Shown: positions 59,111 to 63,994 of the stretch, in pieces
How positions within the stretch are numbered: position 1 is the stretch's first letter
How the letters are laid out: each line of letters opens with the position of its first letter
Source: Candidatus Saccharimonadota bacterium
Lineage (GTDB): Bacteria; Patescibacteriota; Saccharimonadia; Saccharimonadales; Saccharimonadaceae
Length of the DNA: 64,000 nucleotides
Direction: 5' to 3'
Assembly (NCBI GenBank): GCA_027492735.1
Contig: JAPUEE010000005.1
Span: 1-64,000 of the forward strand
Made by a program: the position numbers and the translations under genes
The notes under the pieces: generated by a model
The model's input: the letters and a program-made list of their open reading frames with translations, nothing else
Database searches by the model: none
Told to the model about the DNA's origin: nothing

Positions 59111-59521
59111 TTAGATAGATCCAGTACCACCAGCACCAGCACCGACGATGCTGATAACCCAGTTGACTACAGCGTAGCCGAGGATGGCGACGATCAATCC
59201 GACAATAGCGTAGAGAATCGTATTCTTGGCATCTTTGACCTTTGTTGCATCGCCACCAGATATAACATAGCGAATACCACCCCAGATCAACATAATAACT
59301 GCTAATACACCAACGATAAATAGCATCAGGTTAATCACTCTAGGAACGATAGCTGCGCCACCATCGAATAACTCCGTTGGTTGGCCATCGCCACGGTAAT
59401 CTCCGTTGATAACATCCATCAACGATAGGGCAGAGGCGGTTAGTGGCGTCAATACCGCAGCCACAACGGCACTGCTTGCCGCCACGATTCCTTTTAGAGA
59501 TATACGATTAACTAGTACCAT
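59111..59521 (-). CDS. VirB2/TrbC-like pilin paralogue 1
   Basis: 136 residues from ATG 59521. A signal-peptide-like N-terminus (GIVAASSAVVAAVLTPLTASA) is followed by two hydrophobic helices, with the shared core AVIMLIWGGIRYVISGGDAT, then KVKDAKNTILYAIVGLIVAI and a glycine-rich end. This helix-loop-helix with a basic loop is typical of T4SS major-pilin (VirB2/TrbC) proteins. It is 14 bp downstream of paralogue 2. Confidence 0.82.
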   Translation of the reverse strand: MVLVNRISLKGIVAASSAVVAAVLTPLTASALSLMDVINGDYRGDGQPTELFDGGAAIVPRVINLMLFIVGVLAVIMLIWGGIRYVISGGDATKVKDAKNTILYAIVGLIVAILGYAVVNWVISIVGAGAGGTGSI

Positions 59522-59535
59522 AGACAATATTCCGT

Positions 59536-59961
59536 TTATGCGCCAACAGTGGTGAATACCCAGTTTACTAGCGCGTAGGCGATAATCGCAATCACCAAAC
59601 CGACGACAGCGTAGAGGATAGTATTTTTAGCATCTTTGACTTTGTCGCTGGCACCGTTCGAGATAGTATAGCGAATACCGCCCCAGATAATCATGATGAC
59701 ACAGAGGATACCAATAACGAAGAGCATGATGTTGATGATATCAGTTACCATACCACCTGAACCGACTAGTTTGGACTGCTGACCAGACCCTAGCGTACAG
59801 TCATCATTGATAGCGCCGCCAATTCCGTTTTTAGGATCGCAGTCAGCGTGAGCCGTGGTTGTTCCAACGATGGCAACGACACCTAGGCTGGCGACTAATC
59901 CAACGACAATACTAGGTACGAGCGCCGCAGCCGCGGAAATCTTTCGTAACATCTGTTTCAT
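59536..59961 (-). CDS. VirB2/TrbC-like pilin paralogue 2
   Basis: 141 residues from ATG 59961, preceded by AAGGAGAAA. A signal peptide (to AHA near residue 37) and a cysteine-containing mature start (DCDPKNGIGGAINDDC) come before the core VIMIIWGGIRYTISNGASDK, then VKDAKNTILYAVVGLVIAII. It leads the two-gene pilin unit with paralogue 1. Confidence 0.84.
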   Translation of the reverse strand: MKQMLRKISAAAALVPSIVVGLVASLGVVAIVGTTTAHADCDPKNGIGGAINDDCTLGSGQQSKLVGSGGMVTDIINIMLFVIGILCVIMIIWGGIRYTISNGASDKVKDAKNTILYAVVGLVIAIIAYALVNWVFTTVGA

Positions 59962-60152
59962 ATTTTCTCCTTCGCTTAATAGCAAAATTATACTAACATC
60001 ACTCATTATAGCAAACTTTCGACCAGCGTCAACACGCTAGAGCCTACTTTGTAATTTTACCAAACAAATATATTGACATAAAAGCAAAAGTGTGATAGTA
60101 TTGAACCATAATCGTAATGAAATGATAATTAATCGAAAGGAAATGTAAAGCT

Positions 60153-60815
60153 ATGAGCGTTAACCCAAATATCACTATAAAAACTGAACCTGTTCAGAGC
60201 GCAGATCTACCCAATGTATTAACCGCTCTAGATGCAGATGGCAGTAGGCAGCGCGCCCATGATGATACTATGGCTCAAAGGCAGCAGAATCATGATGATG
60301 CTGTGGCTCAAGCACAACGACAGCATGATGATCACATGCAGACATCACGCCAGCAACACGAAGCTACGCAGGCTGATGCTAACCGTCGTTCTGGTCTGAC
60401 CAAAAGGATTGTCACTACAGCGACAGCAGGAGTTTTAGGTGTGGGTGCATTTTTCGGAATAGCTCAACCGTTAATTAGCAGTGCGGTTAGGCCAGATCAA
60501 ACAGCCAATGTAGAGGCGTCTGCGCCAAAGATGGTTGATGTGATTATGTGGGTTGACCCAACTACTGGTAAAGCCACTATACAGAACCAAGCCTTGATCA
60601 CAACCGAGCTTACTGGATTCGGTATGGATATAACCAAAGTTAACGAATTATTAGATAGTATGACAAACCACCCTGGCCAGGATATTTCAGCTGACATACA
60701 AGTGCCTAATGGCATCAAGTTCAATTATAGAATTATCTACGGTGCCGATACCGATGGTGACGGACAGCCAGATGGTGTCCAGGAGCTAGGAGTAGAAACC
60801 TCCCCAAAAGCGTAG
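60153..60815 (+). CDS. Membrane protein with hendecad repeats, zero-frame product of a frameshift gene
   Basis: 220 residues. Residues 36-79 hold four 11-residue repeats starting at His36, His47, His58 and His69 (HDDxxxQxRQx), a right-handed coiled-coil pattern. A transmembrane helix (about 85-111) follows, then an outside domain ending with a calcium-binding-like DTDGDGQPDG loop (196-205). The frame ends TSPKA-stop at 60815. A -1 slippery site and hairpin at the end connect it to the next frame. The gene sits inside the pilin locus on the opposite strand. AGGAAATGT precedes the ATG. Family not recognised. Confidence 0.75.
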   Translation: MSVNPNITIKTEPVQSADLPNVLTALDADGSRQRAHDDTMAQRQQNHDDAVAQAQRQHDDHMQTSRQQHEATQADANRRSGLTKRIVTTATAGVLGVGAFFGIAQPLISSAVRPDQTANVEASAPKMVDVIMWVDPTTGKATIQNQALITTELTGFGMDITKVNELLDSMTNHPGQDISADIQVPNGIKFNYRIIYGADTDGDGQPDGVQELGVETSPKA

Positions 60816-60841
60816 ACGGCTCGTCCAATAGTGGCGAGTCG
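60803..60841 (+). promoter_or_regulatory. -1 programmed ribosomal frameshift signal
   Basis: Slippery heptamer C CCA AAA (60803-60809) in the zero frame, a 7-base spacer (60810-60816) that contains the zero-frame stop codon, then a hairpin. The hairpin is CGGCTCG (60817-60823) with CGAGTCG (60835-60841), a bulged T, and CCA/TGG closing the loop ATAG. Pairing includes one G-U. Order and spacing match canonical -1 signals. Confidence 0.8.
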
Positions 60842-61183
60842 GCAAACACAAACAGCAATGAAAGAGCGAAGGCTCGAACTATAGGCAAAGACCTCTTGAA
60901 AGCTATTGCCTCGATCACTGCTGATCCTCAATTAGTCAAAGCTGACGAAGATGGTTTACTTGATCTGCGATCAAAATTCGCGACCGGTGGTAAAAAAGCT
61001 GGACAGTTGGTCTGGGGTGATGCCGTAGTGCAGAAACTAGATCGGTCAAAAGGCGCATCAAAAGGCGAGGTTAATACGATATTTGTTACTAGCGAAGGCA
61101 AAGTTGTTACGGTTACGGATAGTAACGGCGACAATATCAGCGCCGTATATACCAGCCCATCGGGCACAGTAATCAATCTGTAA
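60809..61183 (+). CDS. -1 frame extension (C-terminal 124 residues) of the hendecad membrane protein
   Basis: After a -1 slip at C CCA AAA the frame continues SVDGSSNSGESANTNSNERA, then DLLKAIASITADPQLVKADE and QLVWGDAVVQKLDRSKGASK, and ends YTSPSGTVINL. The full fusion would be 343 residues. This frame has no convincing start of its own; a TTG at 60896 lacks a ribosome site. The extension is hydrophilic with a linker of Ser/Asn/Gly and a small beta-rich domain. A simple frameshift mutation is the alternative. Confidence 0.75.
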   Translation, partial: SVDGSSNSGESANTNSNERAKARTIGKDLLKAIASITADPQLVKADEDGLLDLRSKFATGGKKAGQLVWGDAVVQKLDRSKGASKGEVNTIFVTSEGKVVTVTDSNGDNISAVYTSPSGTVINL

Positions 61184-61189
61184 AGGTGA

Positions 61190-61654
61190 TTACTTACAAG
61201 TTTTACTCTTTGCGTCCCACGTATGCCCAGCGTCAGTACAAGCTTTGGCGCTGGTATAGCCGCTCGCGCCACCACCTAGACTACTAAAGACAAATTGGAC
61301 AATGGCGAATGCCACAATCGATACAACGAGCCCGACGACCGAATAAACAATCGTGTCACGGGCTTTTTTAGCTTTGTCGGCAGCGCCGGCAGAGAGAACA
61401 TAGCTAATACCGCCCCAGATAATCATAATAACGGCAATAATACCGACGACGAACAGGAGCACGTTGATGATCGTTTTCACAGTATCATATATCGTATCCG
61501 AGCTCGTGTTTGAGGTGTCTATCTGGCTGACGCCGCACATTGCTTCGCCGGCAGCGGTACCATCGCCACAACTAGCAGCATAGGCTGGTGCTGCGACGAT
61601 AGCTAATCCCACGGTTGCTATGGCGACGAGGCTGGTGATAATCATTTTTTTCAT
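61190..61654 (-). CDS. VirB2/TrbC-like pilin paralogue 3
   Basis: 154 residues from ATG 61654 (AGGAGGAAT upstream). A signal peptide (to AYA near residue 26) is followed by a mature part with three cysteines (ASCGDGTAAGEAMCG), the core AVIMIIWGGISYVLSAGAAD and KAKKARDTIVYSVVGLVVSI, and a C-terminal loop with two cysteines (ACTDAGHTWDAKSKTCK). This last cysteine-bounded extension is absent from the other paralogues and may be surface exposed. Confidence 0.82.
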   Translation of the reverse strand: MKKMIITSLVAIATVGLAIVAAPAYAASCGDGTAAGEAMCGVSQIDTSNTSSDTIYDTVKTIINVLLFVVGIIAVIMIIWGGISYVLSAGAADKAKKARDTIVYSVVGLVVSIVAFAIVQFVFSSLGGGASGYTSAKACTDAGHTWDAKSKTCK

Positions 61655-61663
61655 ATATTCCTC

Positions 61664-62065
61664 CTATAATTGACCGAGTACAAAATTGACAATAGCGGCG
61701 GCTGCCATGGATACAACGAGCCCAACAACAGAGTAGGTGATGGTCATTCTGGCTTTGGCGGTGGCATTGCTATCGCCGCGTGATGAGGTAAAGCGGATTG
61801 ATCCAATAATAATCATAATAACTGATAGTACACCGATACCAAACATCAACACGTTGAGGATATTTTTAATCCTCGTATCAAATGTACTACCAGATTTCTC
61901 GCTGACGAGCTGTTTGCAGACAGCCGAATCTTTATTGGTGGCACAAGGGCAGCCGGCAGCCGTTGGGTCTTTAGCGCAATCAACGGCGAACGCTGGGCTA
62001 GTCATGACGAGGGGCGCGCCGATCAGACCCACGAGCAAACCGATTGAAATGATGAACTTTTTCAT
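61664..62065 (-). CDS. VirB2/TrbC-like pilin paralogue 4
   Basis: 133 residues. A signal peptide (to AFA near residue 27), three cysteines in the mature start (DCAKDPTAAGCPCATNKDSA) and another at CKQLVSE are followed by the core VLSVIMIIIGSIRFTSSRGD and KARMTITYSVVGLVVSMAAA. Its ATG overlaps the previous stop by one base (TAATG), so translation is coupled. Confidence 0.82.
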   Translation of the reverse strand: MKKFIISIGLLVGLIGAPLVMTSPAFAVDCAKDPTAAGCPCATNKDSAVCKQLVSEKSGSTFDTRIKNILNVLMFGIGVLSVIMIIIGSIRFTSSRGDSNATAKARMTITYSVVGLVVSMAAAAIVNFVLGQL

Positions 62066-62334
62066 TAGACGTTCCCCATAACAAAACTCGTAATAGCAAA
62101 GGCCGATGCGGCCACTACCAGACCGGCAACAGCAAAGAGAATAGTCTTCATTGCCGTAGCGGCTTTGCCAGAGTCACCGTTAGCGGTGAGATACTGATAC
62201 CCAGAGAATACGATCATAATAACGGCTACAATGCCGATGATAAAATACGCTGTATTCAGGCCATTTTTTAGGAGCGCCTGGCCAGTGATTTTTGGAATAT
62301 TAGCGTCGATAGCTGCTAGTAGTGTTGCGATCAT
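62065..62334 (-). CDS. VirB2/TrbC-like pilin paralogue 5 (no signal peptide)
   Basis: 89 residues, the shortest copy. It keeps the two-helix core (FIIGIVAVIMIVFSGYQYLT, AMKTILFAVAGLVVAASAFA) with a charged loop, but lacks a cleavable signal and cysteines. TAATG overlaps on both sides couple it to paralogues 4 and 6. Confidence 0.78.
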   Translation of the reverse strand: MIATLLAAIDANIPKITGQALLKNGLNTAYFIIGIVAVIMIVFSGYQYLTANGDSGKAATAMKTILFAVAGLVVAASAFAITSFVMGNV

Positions 62335-62726
62335 TAGTTAAAGATTCCTCCTGGAACGAGCCAGTTTAGTAGAGCCCACATAGCAAAGTACATGACGAGG
62401 GCAATAAAGGCGTTACGAATGATCCCCATGGCCTTTTGAGACTGTTGTGGATTACCGCCAGCGGTAGTATACATGATAGAGCCGTAGATGACGCCACCGA
62501 TAACAGCGAGAGTGACACCGACAGCGAGCCAGTTTAGGACCTGGATGAGAACTACTGTGACTTTATCACCGCTACCAGTGCTACACCCCCAGTTAAAGAA
62601 CGTATCGACACCGCAATCACTATTAGCGGCGAAGGCAGCCTGCGTTTTTACTAGCGGTAAGGTAACAGCGGCAACGAGTGCCATACTAGCGCTAGTTTTT
62701 ACTGTTTTGCTTTTCATGGTCTTCAT
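62334..62726 (-). CDS. VirB2/TrbC-like pilin paralogue 6
   Basis: 130 residues. A signal peptide (to AFA near residue 33) and a two-cysteine mature start (NSDCGVDTFFNWGCST) are followed by VTLAVIGGVIYGSIMYTTAG and KAMGIIRNAFIALVMYFAMW. It heads the five-gene pilin unit (paralogues 6, 5, 4, 3 on this strand). TATAAT lies just upstream; the start at the first or second ATG is uncertain. Confidence 0.8.
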   Translation of the reverse strand: MKTMKSKTVKTSASMALVAAVTLPLVKTQAAFAANSDCGVDTFFNWGCSTGSGDKVTVVLIQVLNWLAVGVTLAVIGGVIYGSIMYTTAGGNPQQSQKAMGIIRNAFIALVMYFAMWALLNWLVPGGIFN

Positions 62727-62827: not shown

Positions 62828-63994
62828 ATGGCAGAACATAAAGTACCCCAAGACGTTGAAGCCGAAGACAAGCTGCTCGGTCCATTTTCTTTTCGCCAAT
62901 TTTTGTATTTACTGGTCGCTCTCGGCGCCGGTGCTCTGGCGTATTTCCTAGGCACTCTGGCTGTACCTCTGGCCTTAATACCGTCTCCAGTGGCGATCCT
63001 TTTTCTGGTGCTGGCTCTGCCGCTCCGAAAAGATCAGCCGATGGAAACGTATCTCGCAGCGATGATCCATTTCTATTTTTCACCGAATCGTCGTATATGG
63101 GATGCGGATGGCCAAGAGGCACTAATCGAGATTACTAATCCACGAACTGATGACGGTCCGCAAGTAAAAGACATTGGTGGCGCCGAGGCGGCACAGCGAC
63201 TGTCGTTCCTAGCCGAGGTATCGGATACGCAAGGCTGGTCAACCAGAGGCATATTAGGTGTTCCGTCTAATACTACTAATTTATCTGATGATTTTGCGAC
63301 TGCTGCTGTCGATGCTCCGGATATATTAGATGATGCTAGTGCACTGGGCCGTGATCTCGAGGATAAGCTAGCTTCGGCTGAGCAGCGTCGTCGTGCTGAG
63401 ATGATGGCAAAGATGACAAGCAACGCTCCTCTAACGCCGCAGCCGGCGCAAAGTTATGTTCACGAATATCAATCGCAGCCTCCTGCGGTGCCAGTCGGCC
63501 AGTCTCCAGTTGCACCTCAACCTGCACCAGTTCCCGAAGTCGACGAGGCAGCCCTCGCAGCGGCACTACGACAATCGAGCCAAGCCAGCCAGTTATCGTA
63601 TCGTCAGCCAACGGTTCAGCCGCCAAACACTATTGCACCAGTACCAACTCAGCCTGTGCAACCAGCACCTCAACCTGTAGTTGAATCCGCACCTGCTGTC
63701 CAGACGCCCGTCACGCCGGCCCCTCAAGCTACTGCACCACGAGCCACTACACCAATAGACACACCGGCTACTCCTGCTCCTGTTGAGACTAAACCAGAAC
63801 CAGAACTGACGCGTCCGATAGAACCTATATTGTCTGTGACAGACCAGCCAGAACCTGCTACAATAGAAGACGTTAGCGCAATCGAACCAACAACCAGTGT
63901 CTTTACACCGCCGCCTAGTCAAACAGCCGGCGAAACAGTGATTGATCACGAAGTCGATACTGGCGGAGATGAGATTGAGGTAAAATTACACTAA
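62828..63994 (+). CDS. PrgI-family T4SS protein with proline-rich tail
   Basis: 388 residues. The N-terminal 90 residues match PrgI: HKVPQDVEAEDKLLGPFSFR, two hydrophobic helices, LRKDQPMETYLAAMIHFYFS and RRIWDADGQEALI. PrgI-type proteins belong to Gram-positive type IV secretion systems and normally precede the VirB4 ATPase. After a middle domain of about 100 residues come about 190 residues very rich in Pro/Ala/Gln/Thr/Val. The gene diverges from the pilin operon; VirB4 would be expected right after the window end. Confidence 0.87.
   Translation: MAEHKVPQDVEAEDKLLGPFSFRQFLYLLVALGAGALAYFLGTLAVPLALIPSPVAILFLVLALPLRKDQPMETYLAAMIHFYFSPNRRIWDADGQEALIEITNPRTDDGPQVKDIGGAEAAQRLSFLAEVSDTQGWSTRGILGVPSNTTNLSDDFATAAVDAPDILDDASALGRDLEDKLASAEQRRRAEMMAKMTSNAPLTPQPAQSYVHEYQSQPPAVPVGQSPVAPQPAPVPEVDEAALAAALRQSSQASQLSYRQPTVQPPNTIAPVPTQPVQPAPQPVVESAPAVQTPVTPAPQATAPRATTPIDTPATPAPVETKPEPELTRPIEPILSVTDQPEPATIEDVSAIEPTTSVFTPPPSQTAGETVIDHEVDTGGDEIEVKLH

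Follow-up and report, generated by a model that had tools for sequence, protein, structure and literature searches.

A gene lying within an array of VirB2-type pilin genes probably carries a working -1 programmed ribosomal frameshift of the dnaX type, by which a lineage-specific membrane protein would be made in a 220-residue and a 343-residue form. The gene is located in the window, the 64,000 nucleotides of DNA that were analysed (C5:1-64000), which are part of a draft genome of 816,744 bases in 26 contigs that is 97.6% complete. The frameshift is a well-supported prediction from the nucleotide sequence, and the elements that compose it are as follows.

60153 to 60815, (+) strand: zero-frame open reading frame of 220 residues, with its stop codon TAG at 60813-60815
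60781 to 60785, (+) strand: other copy of AGGAG, 17 nt ahead of the heptamer
60788 to 60792, (+) strand: Shine-Dalgarno-like AGGAG, with 10 nt between it and the heptamer
60803 to 60809, (+) strand: slippery heptamer C CCA AAA, in phase, with codons at 60804-60806 and 60807-60809
60809 to 61183, (+) strand: coding-like extension in the -1 frame, with 124 codons beyond the shift
60817 to 60841, (+) strand: hairpin with a bulged U, 7 nt after the heptamer (spacer 60810-60816)

The coordinates given in the preliminary description for the zero frame, heptamer, spacer, hairpin and -1 frame were right base for base. Translation showed that the -1 frame is open for 124 codons from 60809 to 61183, as had been claimed, and the lengths of the zero-frame and fused open reading frames agree with the proposed products, the fusion by a -1 shift giving 343 residues. 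The open stretch of the -1 frame extends from 60761 up to its stop codon at 61181-61183; it has no second lesion and overlaps the zero frame at 60761-60815 (18 codons). In a codon log-odds analysis trained on this contig, the zero-frame part scored +39 bits and the -1 part +26 bits. For the downstream region, the two remaining forward frames were at -53 and -91 bits. The -1 frame is clearly coding. By the same measure, the best point for a switch between the frames is 60798-60810.

The two frames could also represent separate genes, the downstream frame being translated on its own, either with TTG 60896 as its start or through re-initiation following the TAG. This TTG is the first ATG, GTG or TTG of the -1 frame from 60809, and it gives an open reading frame of 95 residues with a weak AGG 10 nt upstream. 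However, the -1 coding signal fits a switch ahead of any start codon, and the only good Shine-Dalgarno site lies 104 nt ahead of the TTG, making separate genes very improbable. The earlier statement that the -1 frame has no good start of its own was borne out, no usable one being present before TTG 60896. The tryptic peptide SVDGSSNSGESANTNSNER is encoded upstream of 60896, in a part of the -1 frame that precedes all of its start codons; the Glu-C peptide TSPKSVDGSSNSGE crosses the frame junction.

The heptamer is phased according to the X XXY YYZ rule, as first proposed, and the zero-frame TAG comes right after it. Signals of the dnaX type are recognized by an in-phase heptamer within the overlap of both frames and by a Shine-Dalgarno-like stimulator 6-17 nt upstream that is matched by the anti-Shine-Dalgarno sequence of the 16S rRNA, and both are found here. 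Shine-Dalgarno-like sites 6-17 nt upstream are known stimulators of -1 frameshifting (PMC4066793). The 3' end of the 16S rRNA of the same genome is GGATTACCTCCTTT, with CCTCC matching AGGAG, and pairing with AGGAG 60788-60792 is therefore possible. The AGGAG is not a start site, because no ATG, GTG or TTG is found downstream at initiation distance. The original argument that the alignment of three parts makes chance less likely holds, and the frameshift case is stronger than first thought because AGGAG 60788-60792, an upstream stimulator that matches the organism's own anti-Shine-Dalgarno sequence, is present as a fourth part.

The hairpin had been described as 7 bp plus 3 bp around a bulge after a 7-base spacer, and this was confirmed. 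The structure, CGGCUCG-U-CCA-AUAG-UGG-CGAGUCG, has 7 bp (one G.U) and 3 bp around the bulged U and folds at -14.6 kcal/mol, with z = -4.1 relative to dinucleotide shuffles of the 29-nt element; none of the 200 shuffles was as good. The hairpin criterion applied asks for a structure 4-10 nt after the heptamer with a G-C opening pair and at least 7.6 kcal/mol, and here the distance is 7 nt and the opening pair is C-G. The local hairpin is retained when an 85-nt context is folded, but the whole segment, with z = -0.7, is not unusually stable. Part of the AGGAG is able to pair with CUCC directly before the heptamer, which counts against the signal. An intrinsic terminator was ruled out, there being no T run 3' of the hairpin, and a search of the element for a known RNA gave no Rfam match. 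The tRNA genes show nothing special, with Pro UGG, GGG and CGG and Lys UUU and CUU all present. The arrangement of a heptamer with an upstream Shine-Dalgarno site and a downstream bulged hairpin is the layout of the dnaX cassette.

The base rate of such arrangements was determined on 371 kb of coding sequence, taken from this genome and its relatives, which contained 440 in-phase XXXYYYZ heptamers, a few of them runs of N. Under strict thresholds, set post hoc (AGGAG or GGAGG 8-14 nt upstream; a hairpin of -12 kcal/mol or lower at 5-9 nt), the Shine-Dalgarno site was present at 4/440 heptamers and the hairpin at 4/440, and only the site at 60803-60809 had both (1/440). Each strict feature occurred at 0.8-0.9% of random codon positions. 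By the looser criteria that Sharma et al. 2014 published, a Shine-Dalgarno site was found at 13% of random coding positions, a hairpin at 20% and both at about 3%. The expectation for an in-phase heptamer in an 18-codon overlap is about 6% (440/123,631 x 18), and that for an XXXAAAR heptamer about 1.5% (31/37,789 x 18). The joint chance of a heptamer with both stimulators ranges from about 0.2% with the loose criteria to a few in a million with the strict, post hoc thresholds. When the same peptide was recoded synonymously with the codon usage of the genome, a heptamer arose in 10%, a strict Shine-Dalgarno site in 5%, a loose one in 42%, and a hairpin of -14.6 kcal/mol or lower in 0.075% of the trials.

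Frame junctions were scanned in contigs C5, C4 and C13, which comprise 362 kb and 311 coding open reading frames. Only two junctions lead into a shifted frame that is coding and has no start nearby, the one at 60803-60809 and C13:80641. The latter was rejected as a frameshift on reading, since it consists of atpC followed by another gene with an apparently non-standard start. That gene (G000:C13, about 80641, minus strand) is coding-like, has no nearby ATG, GTG or TTG and comes close after AGGAGG; it may use a rare start codon. Because the 362 kb contain no other frameshift junction, the rates of indel errors and of pseudogenes, as judged from the assembly, are low. A sequencing or assembly error, in which case the true sequence would be one continuous frame, is conceivable in a draft of 26 contigs. 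The rarity of indel errors here speaks against it, however, as do the tracts, which are just four bases long, and the stimulators, which would have to be coincidence, and we regard such an error as improbable.

The genes and sites that surround the frameshift gene are the following.

59111 to 60006, (-) strand: two genes of the T4SS_pilin family (VirB2-like), oriented divergently from the frameshift gene
60073 to 60101, (+) strand: promoter-like site TTGACA-17-TAGTAT with an extended -10, a consensus match only
61190 to 62726, (-) strand: four further T4SS_pilin genes, downstream of the frameshift gene on the opposite strand
62828 to 63994, (+) strand: PrgI-family T4SS gene, with VirB4-like genes next to it, outside the window

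The promoter-like site is located upstream of the frameshift gene and is divergent from the pilin genes. A family search assigned six genes of the locus to T4SS_pilin (PF18895), beside PrgI and VirB4-like genes. Several T4SS_pilin genes beside PrgI and VirB4 characterize the VirB2 pilin arrays of Patescibacteria, and the locus is such an array. Arrays of this kind are known in Patescibacteria, sometimes with a non-pilin gene interrupting them, and the main text describing them makes no mention of frameshifting (PMC12102498). The interrupting gene here differs from those in having no named family. The initial suggestion that this uncultured bacterium belongs to the Saccharibacteria agrees with its T4SS and VirB2-array content.

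The set of genomes searched represents the genus by one genome. Neither half of the gene was found in about 290 genomes of the family, the fused protein was not found in 393 genomes of the order, in GTDB contigs or in IMG/VR, and the downstream half had no match among plasmids. The few matches at E values of about 1e-5 to 1e-2 were rejected as coiled-coil or membrane-segment noise upon reading of the matched open reading frames. In the genome closest by PrgI (G028, 76% identity) the pilin array is present, but no more than about 75 bp stand at the position of the frameshift gene, which from this comparison looks like a lineage-specific insert. The main weakness of the frameshift prediction is that the genomes searched contain no homologue to show conservation of the heptamer, the stem or either frame, on which proof of such signals usually relies. 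In many relatives (L044-L059), a poorly conserved gene for a membrane-anchored or lipoprotein-like protein of roughly 200-380 residues is found beside the pilins and upstream of PrgI; its length and layout are similar to those of the 343-residue fused form, and it is a possible positional counterpart of the fused gene. We do not interpret the frameshift gene as a divergent form of the membrane-anchored protein of roughly 300 residues that relatives have beside the pilins: length and topology are similar, but the position differs and no supporting alignment was found.

Because no relative searched carries either half, an indel within C4A4 is retained as a candidate. A recent one-base indel near this point would have split an ordinary gene of 343 residues, leaving a young pseudogene or the short form only, and the Shine-Dalgarno-like site and hairpin would be coincidental. 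Homopolymers are favoured by indels and C4A4 is composed of two adjoining tracts, the gene is lineage-specific and dispensable in relatives, and a Ser/Asn linker can tolerate change. Moreover, the authors of GeneTack warn that most orphan singletons of this type are overlaps, errors or indels and usually not recoding (PMC3711429). However, the -1 part is intact up to its own stop and coding-like, the 362 kb scanned hold no other frameshift-like junction, and the heptamer would coincide with both stimulators at the low chance calculated above, even by the loose criteria. A recent indel is thus unlikely, and a programmed -1 frameshift is the preferred explanation.

The putative signal resembles the cassette of E. 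coli dnaX in its upstream Shine-Dalgarno-like site, slippery heptamer and downstream bulged hairpin. It corresponds more exactly to the reversed dnaX form, where the longer product, tau, is the one made by frameshifting (PMC3711429, PMC5009743); in that form too, the zero-frame stop immediately follows the shift site and it is the shift that gives rise to the long product. In contrast to dnaX, the heptamer is CCCAAAA instead of AAAAAAG, the spacer is 7 nt with the hairpin slightly further off, and the candidate gene, known from sequence alone, encodes an orphan membrane protein instead of a polymerase subunit. A heptamer and a structural stimulator joining overlapping frames are also the basis of the -1 frameshifts in transposases of the IS3 and IS911 families. 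An insertion-sequence transposase was rejected for this gene, as neither half has a family match in Pfam, NCBIfam or PHROG and the flanking genes encode T4SS pilins.

As in spa13 of Shigella and yopN-tyeA of Yersinia, a share of the product of a gene in a secretion locus would be extended at its C-terminus through a switch of frame, although those are type III systems and in spa13 an extension of 112 aa is added by transcriptional slippage (PMC5009743). Slippage of RNA polymerase, or phase variation of the DNA tract, could join the frames here as well, such switches being frequent in surface and secretion genes. However, runs of four C and four A fall far below the length that slippage or phase variation usually requires, and neither process would need the Shine-Dalgarno site or the hairpin. 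The probability of such a switch is considered to be extremely small.

In the proposed programmed frameshift, the 16S rRNA of a ribosome positioned at CCA AAA would pair with the upstream AGGAG while the mRNA entrance of the ribosome meets the hairpin. The tRNA-Pro and tRNA-Lys would then slip back one base, from CCA AAA to CCC AAA, and a fraction of the ribosomes would bypass the TAG and continue for 124 codons. In an E. coli survey, C_CCA_AAG was the best of 64 heptamers and Y_YYA_AAR heptamers were noted as shift-prone (PMC4066793). Pausing of the dnaX type is best with the hairpin 11-12 nt from the first P-site base (PMC7282821). The hairpin here starts 13 nt after that base, one beyond this distance, which counts against the signal, and the efficiency of frameshifting is probably modest for this reason. 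The genome supplies no positive control because its dnaX has no clear frameshift cassette and its prfB (L075, G000:C11:29852-30886), a gene in which many bacteria use a +1 frameshift, is one continuous frame with no need of a shift.

The zero-frame protein has an N-terminal coiled coil followed by one predicted membrane segment with its peak at residues 86-104, and structure modelling suggests a small alpha/beta domain after the membrane segment. The models, made from single sequences, are of low confidence, with mean pLDDT values of 42 and 57, and fold searches with the upstream model gave no match at E <= 0.001. Positive residues before the membrane segment suggest, by the positive-inside rule, that the N-terminus is inside. 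The coiled coil is predicted to be cytoplasmic, and the 124-residue C-terminal part added by the frameshift is predicted to be extracytoplasmic, joined by a Ser/Asn-rich linker. The shift position is at a domain boundary, within this linker. The preliminary description of a surface-linked coiled-coil protein was correct as to the coiled coil, but this is N-terminal and on the predicted cytoplasmic side. The 220-residue form would accordingly have a cytoplasmic coiled coil, a membrane segment and a small outer domain, and the 343-residue form would carry an extra outer domain on a flexible linker.

The role of the gene is a matter of guesswork; the ratio of the two surface forms might be what is set in an accessory component of the VirB2-pilin T4SS array. 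That a functional -1 frameshift controls the balance between two surface forms of a lineage-specific T4SS/pilin component in an episymbiotic bacterium of the Saccharibacteria type is put forward tentatively, as an idea that is somewhat more doubtful than not. The mechanism, a dnaX-like -1 cassette, is already known, and the gene, locus and phylum would be new for it. A full-text literature search gave no paper joining Saccharibacteria, Patescibacteria or the candidate phyla radiation with ribosomal frameshifting, and the literature containing both programmed frameshifting and type IV secretion deals, to judge from titles and abstracts, with other subjects. If the prediction is true, the signal would have no precedent in the phylum within the literature searched and would be, to our knowledge, the first -1 recoding signal in a T4SS locus. 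We know of few chromosomal -1 frameshift genes in bacteria outside dnaX and insertion sequences. A very small genome would obtain two surface proteins from one gene through recoding, and would do so at machinery thought to contact the host. The example would further show that, in such genomes, an orphan gene whose annotation consists of two fragments can be intact.

The frameshift gene interrupts the VirB2-pilin array itself (59111-62726 and beyond, L060), after which come PrgI and a VirB4 encoded as two open reading frames (287 and 607 aa). The arrangement of the array is strongly variable among relatives, and in G020 PrgI and VirB4 themselves split it. In another relative, a long open frame near PrgI has an in-phase CCCAAAC heptamer (L048:9166), with several Shine-Dalgarno-like sites 10-13 nt upstream and a hairpin of -15.6 kcal/mol downstream.
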